A stretch of 64,000 nt of DNA from Pararhizobium sp. IMCC21322 (GTDB taxonomy: Bacteria > Pseudomonadota > Alphaproteobacteria > Rhizobiales > GCA-2746425): NCBI RefSeq assembly GCF_030758295.1, contig NZ_CP132335.1, positions 2,890,412-2,954,411 of the forward strand. The letters are read 5' to 3'. The position numbers and the translations under genes were made by a program. Shown one piece after another: positions 27,799 to 64,000 of this stretch (position 1 is its first letter; each line of letters begins with the position of its first letter). The notes under the pieces are model-generated. The model was not told where the DNA came from. It made no database searches and worked only from the letters and a program-made list of their open reading frames with translations.

Positions 27799-28002
27799 GG
27801 AATTTTCCTCGTGAACTTCAATTCTGCTCGGAAATAGTCAGACTCCACCAAACCCTGTCAACCCAATTGGGTAAACATCACGCAATCTTGTCTTCCATCG
27901 CCCGTTAATAATTCCGCCGTGCAGGGGTTTTGACCTGTGCCATGATCCCTGCGACATTGCGACAAAGCAAGACTGTCCAACATCTGCATTATGGAGACGC
28001 CC

Positions 28003-29937
28003 TTGGCAAATAAGATTGTGTCTGTTGAGGCGGCTACCAGCCTGATTGCAAACGGCGACACCATAACCACCTCCGGCTTTGTGGGTATTGGCGTACCCGA
28101 ATATCTTCTGAAGGGCGTTGAAGAGAGATTTCTGCAAAGTGCTGAACCCAAAGATCTGACCCTGTTCTTTGCCGCAGGGCAGGGTGATGGCAAGGAACGT
28201 GGGCTGAATCATCTTGGCCATGATGGCCTGTTGCGTCGGGTTGTCGGTGGCCATTGGGGTCTCATTCCCAAAGTAGCCAAGCTGGCGGTTGAAGGTAAAA
28301 TCGAGGCCTATAATCTGCCTCAGGGTGTCATCAGCCATCTTTTCAGGGACATTGCTGCCGGAAAGCCCGGAACCGTGTCTCGTGTCGGTCTTGAAACCTT
28401 TGTTGATCCACGTTCACAGGGCGGCAAAATCAACGCTGAAACAACAGAGGATCTCGTCACGACGATTGAGATCGGCGGAGAGGATTATCTGTTTTACAAG
28501 GCGTTCCCGATAAATGTGGCCCTGCTGCGCGGAACAACGGCCGATCCTGCTGGCAATATTACGATGGAACGCGAAGCGCTCGTCATCGACAATCTGGCGC
28601 AAGCCATGGCAGTCAAAAACTCCAATGGCATCGTCATTGTGCAGGTGGAACGAACAGTCGCGTACGGCTCGCTCAGTCCCAGAGACGTCGAGATACCGGG
28701 TGCACTGGTCGATGCTGTTGTGCTCGCACCTGCAGCCGATCACATGCAGACCTTTGCGACTGCTTACTCACATGCTTATGCAGGCAGGTTTCGTGTCGAG
28801 GCGGATGCAATCCCGCCGATGCCCCTTAAAGCGCGCAAGATTATTGCAAGACGTGCGGCTTTCGAATTGCCGGTCAACGGGGTTGTGAACCTTGGGATTG
28901 GCATGCCGGAAGGCGTCGCTTCTGTCGCTTCGGAGGAAAAACTGCTCAGCCATGTGACCCTGACTGCGGAGCCGGGAGTGGTCGGTGGCCAGCCGGCATC
29001 GGGGCTTGATTTTGGGGCCGCCATCAACACCGATTCCATCATCAATCAGGCCCAGCAATTTGACTTTTATGATGGTGGCGGGCTCGACCTTGCTGTTCTG
29101 GGCATGGCAGAAATCGACGCGACCGGTTCTGTCAATGTCTCGCGTTTCGGACCAAGGCTTGCCGGCGCAGGTGGCTTTATCAATATCAGCCAGAATGCGC
29201 GGTCCGTTGTTTACACCGGAACCTTCACCTCCGGCGGTGCCCGGATGTCGGTTGAAGATGGAACGCTGACCATCCAGTCAGAAGGCCACATTCGCAAATT
29301 TGTAAAGCACGTTGAACAGGTCACATTTGCCGGGCCGCGGGCGGCTCGTATGCAACAACCGGTCCTTTATGTAACCGAACGCTGCGTATTCCAACTGACA
29401 CGCGATGGACTGGAACTGATGGAAATCGCGCCTGGCATTGATGTGCACCGCGATATTCTTGCGCTGATGGATTTTGAGCCAATTATGACAGAGGTCACGA
29501 AAATGGATGAGCGCATTTTCAGGTCCGCGCCAATGGACCTGCGGGTCGATCTGTTGCATCTGGATTTGAAGGATCGCATGGCGCTTGATGCAACCAAGGG
29601 GCAGCTATTCATCAATTTGGAAAAAATGCGCATCCGCAATTTGCATGATGTAACGCTGATTCGCGAGCGGGTGGAAGAAATCTGCGCCGGCTTGGGCGCG
29701 CGCGTAGACGCAATCGTGAACTATGATGGAACGTTCATAGAACCCGACATTGAAAACGACTATGCTGCAATGGTGAAGGAGTTGGAGGATCGGTTTTACA
29801 GCACGGTGACGCGCTATTCAGGATCGGCATTCATGCGCCTTAAACTTGGCACGGTCTTCCAGCGGGATACGGCACCTCACATTTTTGAAACCGCAGATGA
29901 AGCAAGGCGATTTCTGGCGCAGATGAAAGACAGCTGA
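28003..29937 (+). CDS. Acyl-CoA:acetate/3-ketoacid CoA-transferase with extra C-terminal region
   Basis: About 644 residues. I prefer the TTG at 28003 (GGAG 6 bases upstream) over ATG 27991, which has no ribosome site and contains that GGAG; the ATG form would be 648. The first 520 residues match the fused alpha-beta CoA-transferase at 19042-20658 (GLNHLGHDGLLRRVVGGHWG, GIGMPEGVASVA, TAEPGVVGGQ with the probable catalytic Glu). Residues beyond about 525 (FRSAPMDLRVDLLHLDLKDR through RIRNLHDVTLIRERVEEICA to DTAPHIFETADEARRFL) are an added region absent from the first paralogue. It probably activates short acids. It is a single-gene unit. Confidence 0.85.
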   Translation: MANKIVSVEAATSLIANGDTITTSGFVGIGVPEYLLKGVEERFLQSAEPKDLTLFFAAGQGDGKERGLNHLGHDGLLRRVVGGHWGLIPKVAKLAVEGKIEAYNLPQGVISHLFRDIAAGKPGTVSRVGLETFVDPRSQGGKINAETTEDLVTTIEIGGEDYLFYKAFPINVALLRGTTADPAGNITMEREALVIDNLAQAMAVKNSNGIVIVQVERTVAYGSLSPRDVEIPGALVDAVVLAPAADHMQTFATAYSHAYAGRFRVEADAIPPMPLKARKIIARRAAFELPVNGVVNLGIGMPEGVASVASEEKLLSHVTLTAEPGVVGGQPASGLDFGAAINTDSIINQAQQFDFYDGGGLDLAVLGMAEIDATGSVNVSRFGPRLAGAGGFINISQNARSVVYTGTFTSGGARMSVEDGTLTIQSEGHIRKFVKHVEQVTFAGPRAARMQQPVLYVTERCVFQLTRDGLELMEIAPGIDVHRDILALMDFEPIMTEVTKMDERIFRSAPMDLRVDLLHLDLKDRMALDATKGQLFINLEKMRIRNLHDVTLIRERVEEICAGLGARVDAIVNYDGTFIEPDIENDYAAMVKELEDRFYSTVTRYSGSAFMRLKLGTVFQRDTAPHIFETADEARRFLAQMKDS

Positions 29938-59711: not shown

Positions 59712-61004
59712 ATGACTGAACTGGCTCCAGATTTTGCAGATGCGCCTAACGGCACAAAACCATTCTCGCGGTTTGAGTGGATGTTGGCGGGTCGTTACTT
59801 GCGGGCGCGGCGCAAGGAAGCGTCCATTTCTGCAATCGCAGGCTTTTCATTTGCCGGCATCATGCTGGGGGTGGCGGCGCTTATTATCGTGATGGCCGTG
59901 ATGAACGGATTTCGCACCGAACTGCTCGGCAAGATTTTGGGCATTAATGGGCACATGATTATTGAACCGATCGACGGCCCGTTAAATGATTTTGATGATG
60001 TCACGGCACGCTTGTCGAAGCTGGAATCTGTACGGGCTGCCATTCCAATCGTCGAAGGGCAGGTACTTGCCTCAGCGCGGGAAAACAGCAGGGGCGTCCT
60101 TGTACGCGGGATTCAGGAAGCAGACTTTCAAAAATTGCCAGCCGTTCTCAACAATGTGCTTCAGGGGACTTTGACAGGATTTGATGATGGCGGTGGCCTG
60201 GCCGTCGGGTCACGACTTGCAGCCAATCTGGGTCTTCAGTTGGGGGACCGGATGACGCTTGTCTCTCCCAGAGGCGCCGTGACGCCAATGGGCGTCGCGC
60301 CTCGGGTGAAGGCCTATCCGATCACAGCCATTTTCCAACTTGGCATGTCGGAATATGATTCAACCTATGTGTTCATGCAGCAGGCCGAAGCACAGCTCTA
60401 TTTCAACAAGAATGACACAGTGTCCTTTATAGAGGTCTATCTGCAGGATCCGGATAATGTGGGCATTATGCGCGGCCCCATAACGGAAGCCGCTGAACGG
60501 CCTGTCTTCATCACCGATTGGCAACAACGCAACGCTACGTTCTTTTCGGCTCTTCAGGTGGAACGGAATGTGATGTTCATCATTCTTACTCTGATCGTTT
60601 TGGTCGCGGCACTGAACATCATTTCCGGGTTGATTATGCTGGTAAAGGACAAGGGCCGGGACATTGCTGTCCTGCGCACAATGGGCGCCACCCGTGGTGC
60701 GATCATGCGAATCTTTTTCATCACCGGCGCTGCCATCGGTATGTTCGGAACATTGGCCGGTTTTGTGCTGGGAACAGTGGTTTGCCTCAACATCGAAAAC
60801 ATCCGGCAGTTCTTGTCACGCCTGACGGAAACCGAATTGTTTTCACCGGAACTGTATTTCCTGAGCCGCTTGCCTGCGGACATGGATCCATCGGAGGTTG
60901 CTACAGTGGTCTTAATGGCACTGGTATTGTCATTTCTGGCAACATTGTATCCGGCATGGCGTGCTGCACGCCTCGACCCGGTGGACGCGCTTCGTTATGA
61001 ATAA
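59712..61004 (+). CDS. lolC: Lipoprotein-releasing ABC transporter permease LolC/LolE
   Basis: 430 residues. The N-terminal segment ([20 protein letters not shown], then [20 protein letters not shown]), a large periplasmic domain, and three C-terminal segments with [20 protein letters not shown] identify the MacB/FtsX-type fold. It extracts lipoproteins from the inner membrane for LolA. A single LolC serves both roles in alphaproteobacteria. Its end overlaps lolD by 8 bases. Confidence 0.93.
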
Positions 61005-61692
61005 TGGCGTCGCAGTACAACCAGCCATGAAACTGACTGGTATTGAGAAAACCTACGGGCATGGCGATGCAACCCTCACCGTATTGAAGGATGCAAACCT
61101 CGACCTTGCTGCCGGTGAAATGGTTGCATTGGTGGCGCCCTCAGGCACCGGTAAATCAACCTTGCTCCACATCGCAGGGCTTCTTGAAAAGCCAACAAGC
61201 GGCGAAGTTTACGTGGGAGGCGCTGCCTGTCACAAGCTTGATGACAAGGCTCTGACGCGTATGAGGCGCACCGAGATTGGGATCGTCTATCAGTTTCATC
61301 ATCTGCTGCCCGAATTCACGGCAGTTGAGAATATTGCAATGCCGATGATGATTCGTGGCTTGGACAGGGCAGAAGCGCAAAAAAGGGCATTCACGCTGCT
61401 TCAGTACCTTCATATTGACCATCGAAGCAAACACCGGCCCGCAGAGTTGTCGGGCGGTGAGCAGCAGCGTGTTGCCATTGCCAGGGCTGTTGCCAACAGC
61501 CCACGCATATTGCTTGCAGATGAGCCGACTGGAAATCTCGACCCGAAAACCTCTGACTATGTATTTGACGCTCTGTCGCAGCTTGTTAAAGAGTCCGGGT
61601 TATCCGCTTTGGTAGCCACGCACAATCTGGATCTGGCCGCCCGCATGGACAGAAAGATTACCATTCAAGATCAACGGATCGTTGCCCATTAA
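60997..61692 (+). CDS. lolD: Lipoprotein-releasing ABC transporter ATPase LolD
   Basis: 231 residues from ATG 60997, inside the end of lolC. Walker [21 protein letters not shown], signature [20 protein letters not shown], Walker [16 protein letters not shown] and the H-loop VATHNLD are all present. It powers LolC. Confidence 0.95.
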
Positions 61693-61741
61693 AGCAATTT
61701 TAACTGTAAATATTCCCTGTTTGTTCTTTTTCTTGAAAAGA

Positions 61742-61756
61742 GAACAAAAGTAGAAC
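61742..61756 (+). promoter_or_regulatory. LexA (SOS) box
   Basis: GAACAAAAGTAGAAC is GAAC-N7-GAAC, the exact alphaproteobacterial LexA motif (GTTC-N7-GTTC on the other strand). It lies 33 bases before the small ORF start and just after a TTGAAA (61733) that could be its -35 element, so LexA would block polymerase binding. The -10 region is weak. Confidence 0.8.
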
Positions 61757-61788
61757 AATGTAAGGCTCAAGCCACACAGGAGCCTACA

Positions 61789-61890
61789 ATGTTCTATCAA
61801 TTTCGTGACATAACCGCATTCGTAACACTGATCATGTTCTCCTTTTTTGTCGCCTTTCTGGGCGACTGGGCTGTGATTTCCGGATTTTAG
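61789..61890 (+). CDS. 33-residue SOS-regulated membrane peptide, SidA-like by features
   Basis: ATG 61789 to TAG 61888-61890, with AGGAG 6 bases before the ATG. The peptide starts MFYQFRDI; residues 9-26 (TAFVTLIMFSFFVAFLGD) are one hydrophobic segment, and it ends ISGF. A perfect LexA box sits just upstream. Caulobacter SidA is a 29-residue, single-segment inner-membrane peptide that stops division in the SOS response; the size, topology and control match, but I have no alignment. After its TAG the same frame stays open for 33 codons with an Asp/Pro/Asn repeat. Confidence 0.7.
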   Translation: MFYQFRDITAFVTLIMFSFFVAFLGDWAVISGF

Positions 61891-62035
61891 GATCCTCCAT
61901 TTGATCCAGACAATCCGGCTAATCCAGACAATAATGGGTGCAGCAGAGATGTGGAAACAACAGCTTCCCGCTGGACCACAATACCTGCATGAGCGACAAT
62001 AGCAGAAGAACAGGTTTCAAACTGCGAGTCGCTTC

Positions 62036-64000
62036 ATGGCAGATCCGGGCTTTATCCACCTTCGTGTACATTCGGCCTATTCGCTGCTTGAGGGCGCATT
62101 GCAAATTGGAAAGTTGCTGGAGCTTACCAAAGCTGATGCTATGCCGGCTGTTGCTATAACGGACACCGGCAATCTGTTCGGCGCGCTAGAGTTTTCCGAC
62201 AAAGCCCAATCCAAGGGCATCCAGCCAATCATCGGCTGTCAGATGGCAATCGATTTTGCGGACATTGAAATTGATCCGCGATCAAGAGATGGTCGGAACC
62301 GGCCGGATGTTGCCTATGGCAATGTCGTGTTGCTTGCAATGAACGAAACCGGTTTCCTCAACCTTTCAAAGCTTGTCAGCCGCAGCTTTCTGGAAACGGA
62401 TGCGTCGACCCGTTCCCACACCTCACTTGAACTTCTGACTGAATTGAATGACGGACTGATTTGCCTGTCCGGTGGGCTGGAAGGGGCAATTGATCAATTG
62501 ATCGCGGATCGGGACGACGTCCGCGCCGCATCAAGATTGAACACATTAGCCAAAATGTTCGGTGACCGATTCTATATTGAAATACAGCGTCATGAACATC
62601 CTGCTGAAAGGTACACTGAGCGTTTTCTGGTGAACTACGCCTATGAGCATGACATTGCACTGGTTGCCACCAATGAGGTCTTCTTTCCTGATCAGAGCGA
62701 CTTTGAAGCTCATGATGCGCTGATTTCCATCGCGCAGGGGCGCATGGTTGCAGAAGATGATCGACGGAAGCTGACAGCACACCATTACTTCAAGAGCCGC
62801 GCGGAAATGCGGGATCTGTTTGCAGACATTCCCGAGGCTTTGGAAAACACGGTCGAGATTGCCCAAAGATGTCAATTTCGTCCGGACAAGCATGATCCGA
62901 TCCTGCCGAATTTCACAGGTGAGGGGAGCGAACCAACAGCTGAGAGCGAAGACACGGCGCAACTGCTTGAGCGGGAAGCAGCGGAGTTGCGGCAGCAGGC
63001 TCTGGATGGACTGGAGCAACGGCTTGGCCAGTTGGGGCTGGCACCGGGCGTTGATCGGGAAACCTACGATAAGCGTCTGGCCTTCGAGTTGGATGTGATC
63101 GTTGGTATGAAGTATCCCGGCTATTTTCTCATCGTTGCCGACTTCATCAAATGGGCCAAGTTGAATGATGTGCCAGTTGGCCCAGGCCGTGGCTCTGGTG
63201 CCGGGTCTTTGGTGGCCTGGTCACTGACCATTACGGACATTGATCCGCTTCGCTTTTCCCTTCTGTTCGAACGGTTTCTGAACCCCGATCGCGTATCCAT
63301 GCCCGATTTCGATATCGATTTCTGTCAGGAGAAGCGCGACAAGGTTATCCGCTATGTCCAGCGCCGCTACGGTGCGGCGCAGGTGGCTCAAATCATCACA
63401 TTTGGAACTCTGCAGGCCAGAGCCGTTCTGCGGGACGTGGGCCGTGTTCTGCAAATGCCATATGGGCAGGTGGATCGTCTCTGCAAAATGGTGCCCTCGA
63501 CACCAGCCAATCCTATGACGCTGCAAGAGGCGATTGATACTGAGCCTCGCCTCAAGGAAGCCGGTGAAGAGGAGGAGGTGGTCGCACGTCTGTTTTCCAT
63601 GGCGACGCGCCTGGAAGGGCTCTACCGCCACGCTTCAACACATGCTGCTGGCATTGTCATTGGTGACCGTCCGCTGGAACAGCTGGTGCCCCTGTATCGC
63701 GATCCGCGATCTGACATGCCGGTTACTCAATACAATATGAAGTGGGTGGAGCAGGCGGGCCTGGTCAAATTCGATTTTCTGGGGCTCAAAACGCTGACGA
63801 TCCTGGAGCGCGCCATCGGTCTTATCGCTCGACGTGGAATTGATGTTGATCTGAGCACTGTTCCATTGGAAGACAAAAAAACATACGAGATGCTGGCACG
63901 CGGCGAAACGGCTGGCGTCTTTCAATTGGAAAGTCAGGGCATGCGCCGTGCTTTGGCGGGCATGAAGCCGGATAGATTTGAAGACATCATTGCGCTTGTG
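62036..64000 (+). CDS. dnaE: DNA polymerase III alpha subunit, N-terminal 655 codons
   Basis: Runs off the window end. It opens MADPGFIHLRVHSAYSLLEG, the PHP domain start of replicative DnaE. Motifs later are MKYPGYFLIVADFIKWAKLN, GPGRGSGAGSLVAW, and PDFDIDFCQEKRDKVIRYVQ with the catalytic Asp pair. It polymerises both leading and lagging strands. It is more like DnaE1 than the SOS-type DnaE2 (full PHP, no imuAB next to it). An in-frame stop near 61999 and weak ribosome site leave 62036 as the only ATG. Confidence 0.95.
   Translation, partial: MADPGFIHLRVHSAYSLLEGALQIGKLLELTKADAMPAVAITDTGNLFGALEFSDKAQSKGIQPIIGCQMAIDFADIEIDPRSRDGRNRPDVAYGNVVLLAMNETGFLNLSKLVSRSFLETDASTRSHTSLELLTELNDGLICLSGGLEGAIDQLIADRDDVRAASRLNTLAKMFGDRFYIEIQRHEHPAERYTERFLVNYAYEHDIALVATNEVFFPDQSDFEAHDALISIAQGRMVAEDDRRKLTAHHYFKSRAEMRDLFADIPEALENTVEIAQRCQFRPDKHDPILPNFTGEGSEPTAESEDTAQLLEREAAELRQQALDGLEQRLGQLGLAPGVDRETYDKRLAFELDVIVGMKYPGYFLIVADFIKWAKLNDVPVGPGRGSGAGSLVAWSLTITDIDPLRFSLLFERFLNPDRVSMPDFDIDFCQEKRDKVIRYVQRRYGAAQVAQIITFGTLQARAVLRDVGRVLQMPYGQVDRLCKMVPSTPANPMTLQEAIDTEPRLKEAGEEEEVVARLFSMATRLEGLYRHASTHAAGIVIGDRPLEQLVPLYRDPRSDMPVTQYNMKWVEQAGLVKFDFLGLKTLTILERAIGLIARRGIDVDLSTVPLEDKKTYEMLARGETAGVFQLESQGMRRALAGMKPDRFEDIIALV

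Follow-up and report, generated by a model that had tools for sequence, protein, structure and literature searches.

In the SOS response, RecA triggers the cleavage of LexA after DNA damage. The closest described relative of the gene analysed here is sidA of Caulobacter crescentus (CCNA_02004; PMC11034885), whose product is reported as an inner-membrane peptide of 29 residues that acts on FtsW (PMC4211646) and blocks late division through FtsW, with FtsN (PMC4211646, PMC13396833). LexA is described as controlling sidA in Caulobacter, and loss of lexA as leading to filamentation through sidA (PMC12700426). The DidA protein of Caulobacter is likewise a small membrane division inhibitor that acts after DNA damage, at the FtsW/I/N step; as presented in PMC4211646, it differs in being SOS-independent, controlled by DriD and bound to FtsN. 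In Gram-positive bacteria YneA, ChiZ, DivS and SosA are likewise SOS-induced small membrane proteins that stop division, and YneA is reported to act on FtsW (PMC13396833). PMC4211646 describes yneA, divS, chiZ and sidA as having no relation to sulA, and also states that sulA is not widely conserved beyond the gammaproteobacteria. In the literature searched (titles, starts of abstracts and passages, with the founding paper, Modell et al. 2011, outside this coverage) we found no SidA described outside Caulobacter and no answer to how Hyphomicrobiales, rhizobia included, halt division after DNA damage.

A LexA box and a 33-codon frame before dnaE

The window, that is the whole stretch of 64,000 nucleotides that was analysed, comes from the 5.25-Mb, single-contig genome of Pararhizobium sp. 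IMCC21322. The features of interest lie near its end:

60961-61692, + strand: lolD, ABC transporter ATPase, the upstream neighbour (longest ORF)
61733-61738, + strand: likely -35 element TTGAAA, matching the TTG signal of the relatives' aligned boxes, with the LexA box inside the spacer that follows it
61742-61756, + strand: LexA box GAACAAAAGTAGAAC, an exact GAAC-N7-GAAC match
61778-61782, + strand: ribosome-binding site AGGAG, six bases 5′ of the ATG at 61789
61789-61890, + strand: 33-residue peptide with one predicted membrane helix, assigned to the SidA family in the broad sense (conserved frame, pN/pS 0.19, profile link to SidA)
62036-64000, running off the window, + strand: dnaE, DNA polymerase III alpha (TIGR00594 above cut-off, 1205.8 bits)

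The name lolD is what we take the ORF at 60961-61692 to be from its translation; the true start of this gene is probably the ATG at 61027. Between the end of the lolD ORF (61692) and the start of dnaE (62036) lies the frame of 33 codons, translated as MFYQFRDITAFVTLIMFSFFVAFLGDWAVISGF. The peptide has one hydrophobic stretch, at residues 8-24, with a best 17-residue Kyte-Doolittle mean of 2.49, and so has the predicted make-up of a very short single-pass membrane peptide. The original prediction for this DNA, made from the letters alone, had claimed a perfect GAAC-N7-GAAC site, a good ribosome site and one transmembrane segment in 33 codons; the first two were found exactly as described, and the single hydrophobic stretch agrees with the third.

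Conservation in the family of the window genome

The peptide and the exact box are kept in all five genomes of the window's family, the window's own included. Loss of the frame in relatives, named in the original prediction as an outcome that would speak against it, is thus not what we observed. In the other four genomes (G001-G004), all with the exact box, the peptide has identities of 94, 82, 70 and 39% to that of the window; near relatives of the window genome include 'Rhizobiales bacterium IMCC20636' (CP018226) and a 'Hyphomicrobiales bacterium' MAG. The residues kept in the family follow the pattern RD--A----F. For the four closest family genomes pN is 0.112 and pS 0.585, a ratio of 0.19 that indicates purifying selection, and in five other compared groups of relatives the ratio runs from 0 to 0.30. 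So strong a restraint on nonsynonymous change is what a translated gene would show.

A genome of the window's genus carries a second weak relative, MTFLFALVKELCAMAALILFCRALFLWAGLV (L331, G003:C4:12213-12290; E 0.001), without an exact LexA box. It may be a chance match or a paralogue.

Distribution in the order and the class

The first 140 residues of DnaE were searched against 294 genomes of the order, 285 of which matched. We took 130 loci, namely the top 30 DnaE matches plus 100 chosen for spread among the matches listed, a sample that leans to nearer relatives. Members were found with a profile built from the peptides behind boxes and then iterated; the profiles behind the count given next, and behind the Caulobacteraceae count given below, were trained partly on the same loci. 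Independent tests are provided by a five-row model of the window family, by model A2 (a 47-row hyphomicrobial alignment) run on the class, and by cross-searches between SidA-only and order models.

A recognizable family member stands before dnaE in 100 of the 130 loci, from 22 of 34 families; the remaining 30 loci, and 12 of the 34 families, showed no member at the dnaE-upstream place. An exact box occurs in 91 of the 100 members, within 250 bases before the conserved core (median 22 bases). A scan of this kind, for a LexA box with a small ORF upstream of dnaE, had been proposed with the original prediction. The common pattern of the peptides is near M-x(2-4)-[RK]-[DE]-x-x-A-[LF]-x-[ST]-L-x-x-F...W. 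A lolD match lies upstream of dnaE, on the dnaE strand, in 63 of the 130 loci.

Searches with the models extend these counts. Model A2 matches 150 of 294 order genomes at E ≤0.01, a figure that is partly in-sample. With the five-row window-family model, run on 297 order genomes, at least six of the 15 best matches outside the family (G276, G014, G117, G243, G253 and G155) lie ∼120-470 bases before dnaE, and most of the other nine are without a listed dnaE place. Beyond the order, a search of 385 class genomes with A2 at E 0.1 gave matches in 32 out-of-order genomes. Among the 27 of these that were examined, dnaE follows the match directly in ten, and in an eleventh, at a contig end, lolD immediately precedes it; an exact box is present in 10 of these 11 loci. 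The other 16 show no dnaE or lolD match within the DNA examined and are probably chance matches.

A mobile origin was also considered and set aside: tblastn with one member from G103 found no match in plasmid records, and tblastn with one member from G243 found none in phage records.

In nine loci of family f11 (L049, L050, L053, L056, L078, L083, L086, L088 and L097) the core, e.g. IVRDVAALGALVLFGTML, ends a longer stop-to-stop frame of 102-204 codons. The long frames resemble one another in their N-terminal part, and eight of the nine loci have the exact box ∼200-245 bases ahead of the core, a greater distance than elsewhere. It is possible that the f11 form is a larger variant.

The LexA box and its predicted promoter

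The box taken alone is weak evidence, because the bare GAACN7GAAC pattern is common in the genome (164 sites versus 152 for a reversed control pattern). The window has seven sites versus 2.15 expected, and two of 100 shuffles had seven or more. So common a pattern is what would favour a chance ORF lying beside a chance LexA-like site; this explanation is refuted by the conservation counts (frame and box kept in 5/5 family genomes, members in 100/130 order loci, a dominance of synonymous changes), and we give it practically no weight. Three observations place the box together with the frame above chance. Both are kept in the five family genomes. Box density in the 130 order loci is 1.37/kb in the 700 bases before dnaE versus 0.052/kb elsewhere in the loci, a 26-fold difference. 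Finally, only one gene of the window genome matches the LexA DNA-binding domain, and ∼90 bases ahead of that domain stands a box of similar build, GAACAAGACAAGAAC.

Two overlapping exact GAACN7GAAC sites at 29718-29743 of the window lie inside a long coding frame (27991-29937), and on account of this position are probably not another SOS promoter.

The majority letters over 91 boxes of relatives are GAACAAAAaaaGAACAT. When these boxes are aligned on GAAC, the strongest upstream signal is TTG at -9 to -7 (72, 60 and 56 of 91), and downstream there are A, T and T at +15, +16 and +19, with T at +19 in 66 of 91. Judged from this alignment, the LexA box of the relatives is located within the 17-base spacer of a sigma-70-like promoter. 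The counterpart of the -10 element in the window, CAATGT (61756-61761), is weak, and a consensus promoter scan of the window locus did not list a promoter at the box. LexA control of the window peptide is thus a prediction from an exact, conserved box inside the spacer of a promoter-like pair.

SidA at the dnaE locus of Caulobacter

Caulobacteraceae were located via PopZ, using a query sequence that proved 100% identical in one Caulobacter genome (G750). We selected 70 loci (30 best and 40 picked) of the 142 genomes with a match, out of 149 searched. A SidA-like ORF precedes dnaE in 67 of the 70 loci, a count that is partly in-sample, and 47 of the 67 ORFs have an exact box within 150 bases. 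There is a lolD match in 28 of the 70 loci; one Caulobacter locus (L241) has none in the 1294 bases examined upstream. In G750 an ORF of 29 codons stands behind the box GAACATCTTGTGAAC and before dnaE (CC1926 in the older Caulobacter numbering; PMC1839093). The NCBIfam model NF033228, 'cell division inhibitor SidA', matches this ORF over 29/29 positions with 72.4 bits, the cut-off being 35. This match identifies the Caulobacter ORF that stands between the LexA box and dnaE as SidA, and the belief voiced in the original prediction, that sidA lies near dnaE in Caulobacter, was correct.

Relationship of the window peptide to SidA

The window peptide resembles SidA of C. crescentus in its place before dnaE, its LexA box, its length of ∼30 residues and its single predicted helix. 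SidA and the window group share an N-terminal pattern near M-x(2-4)-[RK]-[DE]-x2-[AS]-[LF]-x-[ST]-[LV]-x2-F, and lolD adjoins in part of both groups, the order and the Caulobacteraceae. The two differ in length (33 versus 29 residues) and in sequence: the FVWMM core of SidA is replaced in the window family, the C-terminus of which is GDWA or SDWA, and the window sequence is too diverged for NF033228.

Indeed, searches of NCBIfam and Pfam with the window peptide and two other members of its family gave no match up to E 10, so that the window peptide falls outside curated SidA membership (NF033228, an equivalog model with the cut-off of 35 bits). YneA, ChiZ, DivS and SosA were not among the family-model matches of the peptides either. 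NF033228 matches one of 47 hyphomicrobial members (E 0.067), compared with 23 of 24 from the Caulobacteraceae (E ≤10).

In direct profile comparison the window family and SidA show weak similarity (6.7%). Set against the rest of the order, the window family reaches 92.6% (E 4.4e-7), and the order set against the SidA of Caulobacteraceae reaches 95.2% (E 2.6e-8, score 31.4); as controls for this last score, 200 column-permuted alignments did not exceed 16.7, and reversing the SidA alignment gave 7.8. Because the direct comparison of the window family is weak, its homology to SidA runs through intermediates, and through these only. Cross-searches agree in both directions. A SidA-only model has matches in 23 of the 130 order loci, where the best match is a known family member in 23 of 23 cases (the model misses 77 of the 100 order members), and the best 40 matches of the hyphomicrobial model on Caulobacteraceae loci are all the SidA ORF.

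Common descent of the window peptide and SidA is the best reading of these comparisons, because the profile match is joined by agreement in locus, promoter design, length and N-terminal pattern; the place before dnaE is common to the window, 67/70 Caulobacteraceae loci and 100/130 order loci. An alignment with SidA, suggested in the original prediction as a check, gives weak similarity when made directly and a clear match by way of the order. The likeness to SidA that the prediction had asserted holds for a family of one-helix, LexA-boxed peptides of ∼30 residues with a profile link to SidA; it does not extend to the curated model or to close direct similarity.

The same gross anatomy, a LexA box and one short helix, is found in SOS-induced membrane toxins of the TisB/DinQ sort, DinQ being a published SOS single-helix peptide (PMC3567139). 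A toxin of this sort would depolarize the inner membrane, and the divisome would not be its target. The profile homology and the locus common to SidA argue against such a role for the window peptide, and we consider it unlikely.

Relocated copies and the expression of dnaE

Another role for the ORF would be that of a leader peptide or uORF tuning the expression of dnaE, which the LexA box would then serve. The peptide is usually just 5′ of dnaE, and no terminator-like site was found within 61600-62100. Moreover, dnaE has been counted among the SOS-regulated genes of Caulobacter, and a comparative study recovered it in alphaproteobacteria (PMC3323433). A study by ribosome profiling and proteogenomics reports a novel small ORF, sORF25, in the 5′-UTR of Sinorhizobium meliloti dnaE1, at a place that corresponds to that of the window peptide; its authors suggest a possible uORF role, and the words SidA and SOS are absent from its main text (PMC10117765). 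Given the corresponding place, sORF25 is probably the same gene as the window peptide.

Eight copies of the peptide are found away from dnaE, in seven genomes of family f24 (L313-L319) and in G046 (L328), each with a LexA box right before the peptide. For one of the f24 genomes, G264, the place of dnaE is not listed; no dnaE occurs within the 2.2 kb read. In four of the eight (L314, L318, L319 and L328) lolD is still the upstream neighbour, within ∼300 bases. The order lolD-peptide-dnaE thus seems to have been broken between peptide and dnaE in f24 and G046. The dnaE-leader explanation is weakened, because these copies keep LexA boxes directly in front of them at places where dnaE is not the neighbour. 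It also fits poorly with the gap from the stop codon to dnaE, which varies from 20 to 631 bases among the 100 members, with protein-level selection on the hydrophobic helix, and with homology to SidA, a known trans-acting inhibitor. Taken together, we hold a leader function to be unlikely. We suggest that the reports of a LexA-regulated dnaE and the finding of sORF25 are two views of the peptide gene.

Four genomes of family f44 (G086, G174, G255 and G272; L321-L327) each have two peptide copies, which begin MIIRD[VI]LALGSL. Seven copies were read, three of them before dnaE (L323, L324 and L327) and four elsewhere; in all seven, the 300 bases around the core lack an exact LexA box. Possibly, these are paralogues under another control.

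A link to EcpR1, an sRNA connected with cell elongation in S. meliloti, was rejected: EcpR1 is placed between divK-pleD and rpmG (PMC4414408).

Proposed function

We are fairly confident that the ORF represents sidA in this hyphomicrobial and encodes a putative LexA-repressed SOS inhibitor of late division that would act on FtsW/FtsN. The gene, its box, the conservation of frame and box, the homology to SidA through intermediates and the shared locus were obtained directly; from them we infer induction, topology, target and division arrest. Cleavage of LexA would lift repression of the promoter that has the box across its -35/-10 spacer, and the 33-residue single-helix peptide would be made. 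The peptide would insert into the inner membrane N-in/C-out, with its basic N-terminus inside, as in Caulobacter SidA. Its helix may then bind the late divisome at FtsW, with FtsN, and by holding FtsW/FtsI/FtsN inactive would stop constriction until repair.

Implications

The comparisons support the conclusion that the SidA kind of peptide reaches far beyond the Caulobacteraceae and beyond the curated model NF033228. They suggest that a tiny, hardly annotated checkpoint protein is present in much of the Alphaproteobacteria. Since the locus is fixed and easily found, and the peptide is one that the curated SidA model does not catch, the proposal can be tested in many species at once. The kept residues RD--A----F provide a natural mutational scan for positions that may bind FtsW. 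In Alphaproteobacteria, the LexA site upstream of dnaE may need to be reinterpreted as belonging to the promoter of the peptide gene. On balance we favour the view that SidA is not peculiar to Caulobacter: retained as a peptide of ∼25-50 residues encoded at the lolD-dnaE junction, it would be the ancestral checkpoint on division in the SOS response for a large part of the Alphaproteobacteria. The LexA site that has been attributed to dnaE would be the sidA promoter, and it would be through SidA that rhizobia-like bacteria stop dividing after DNA damage.
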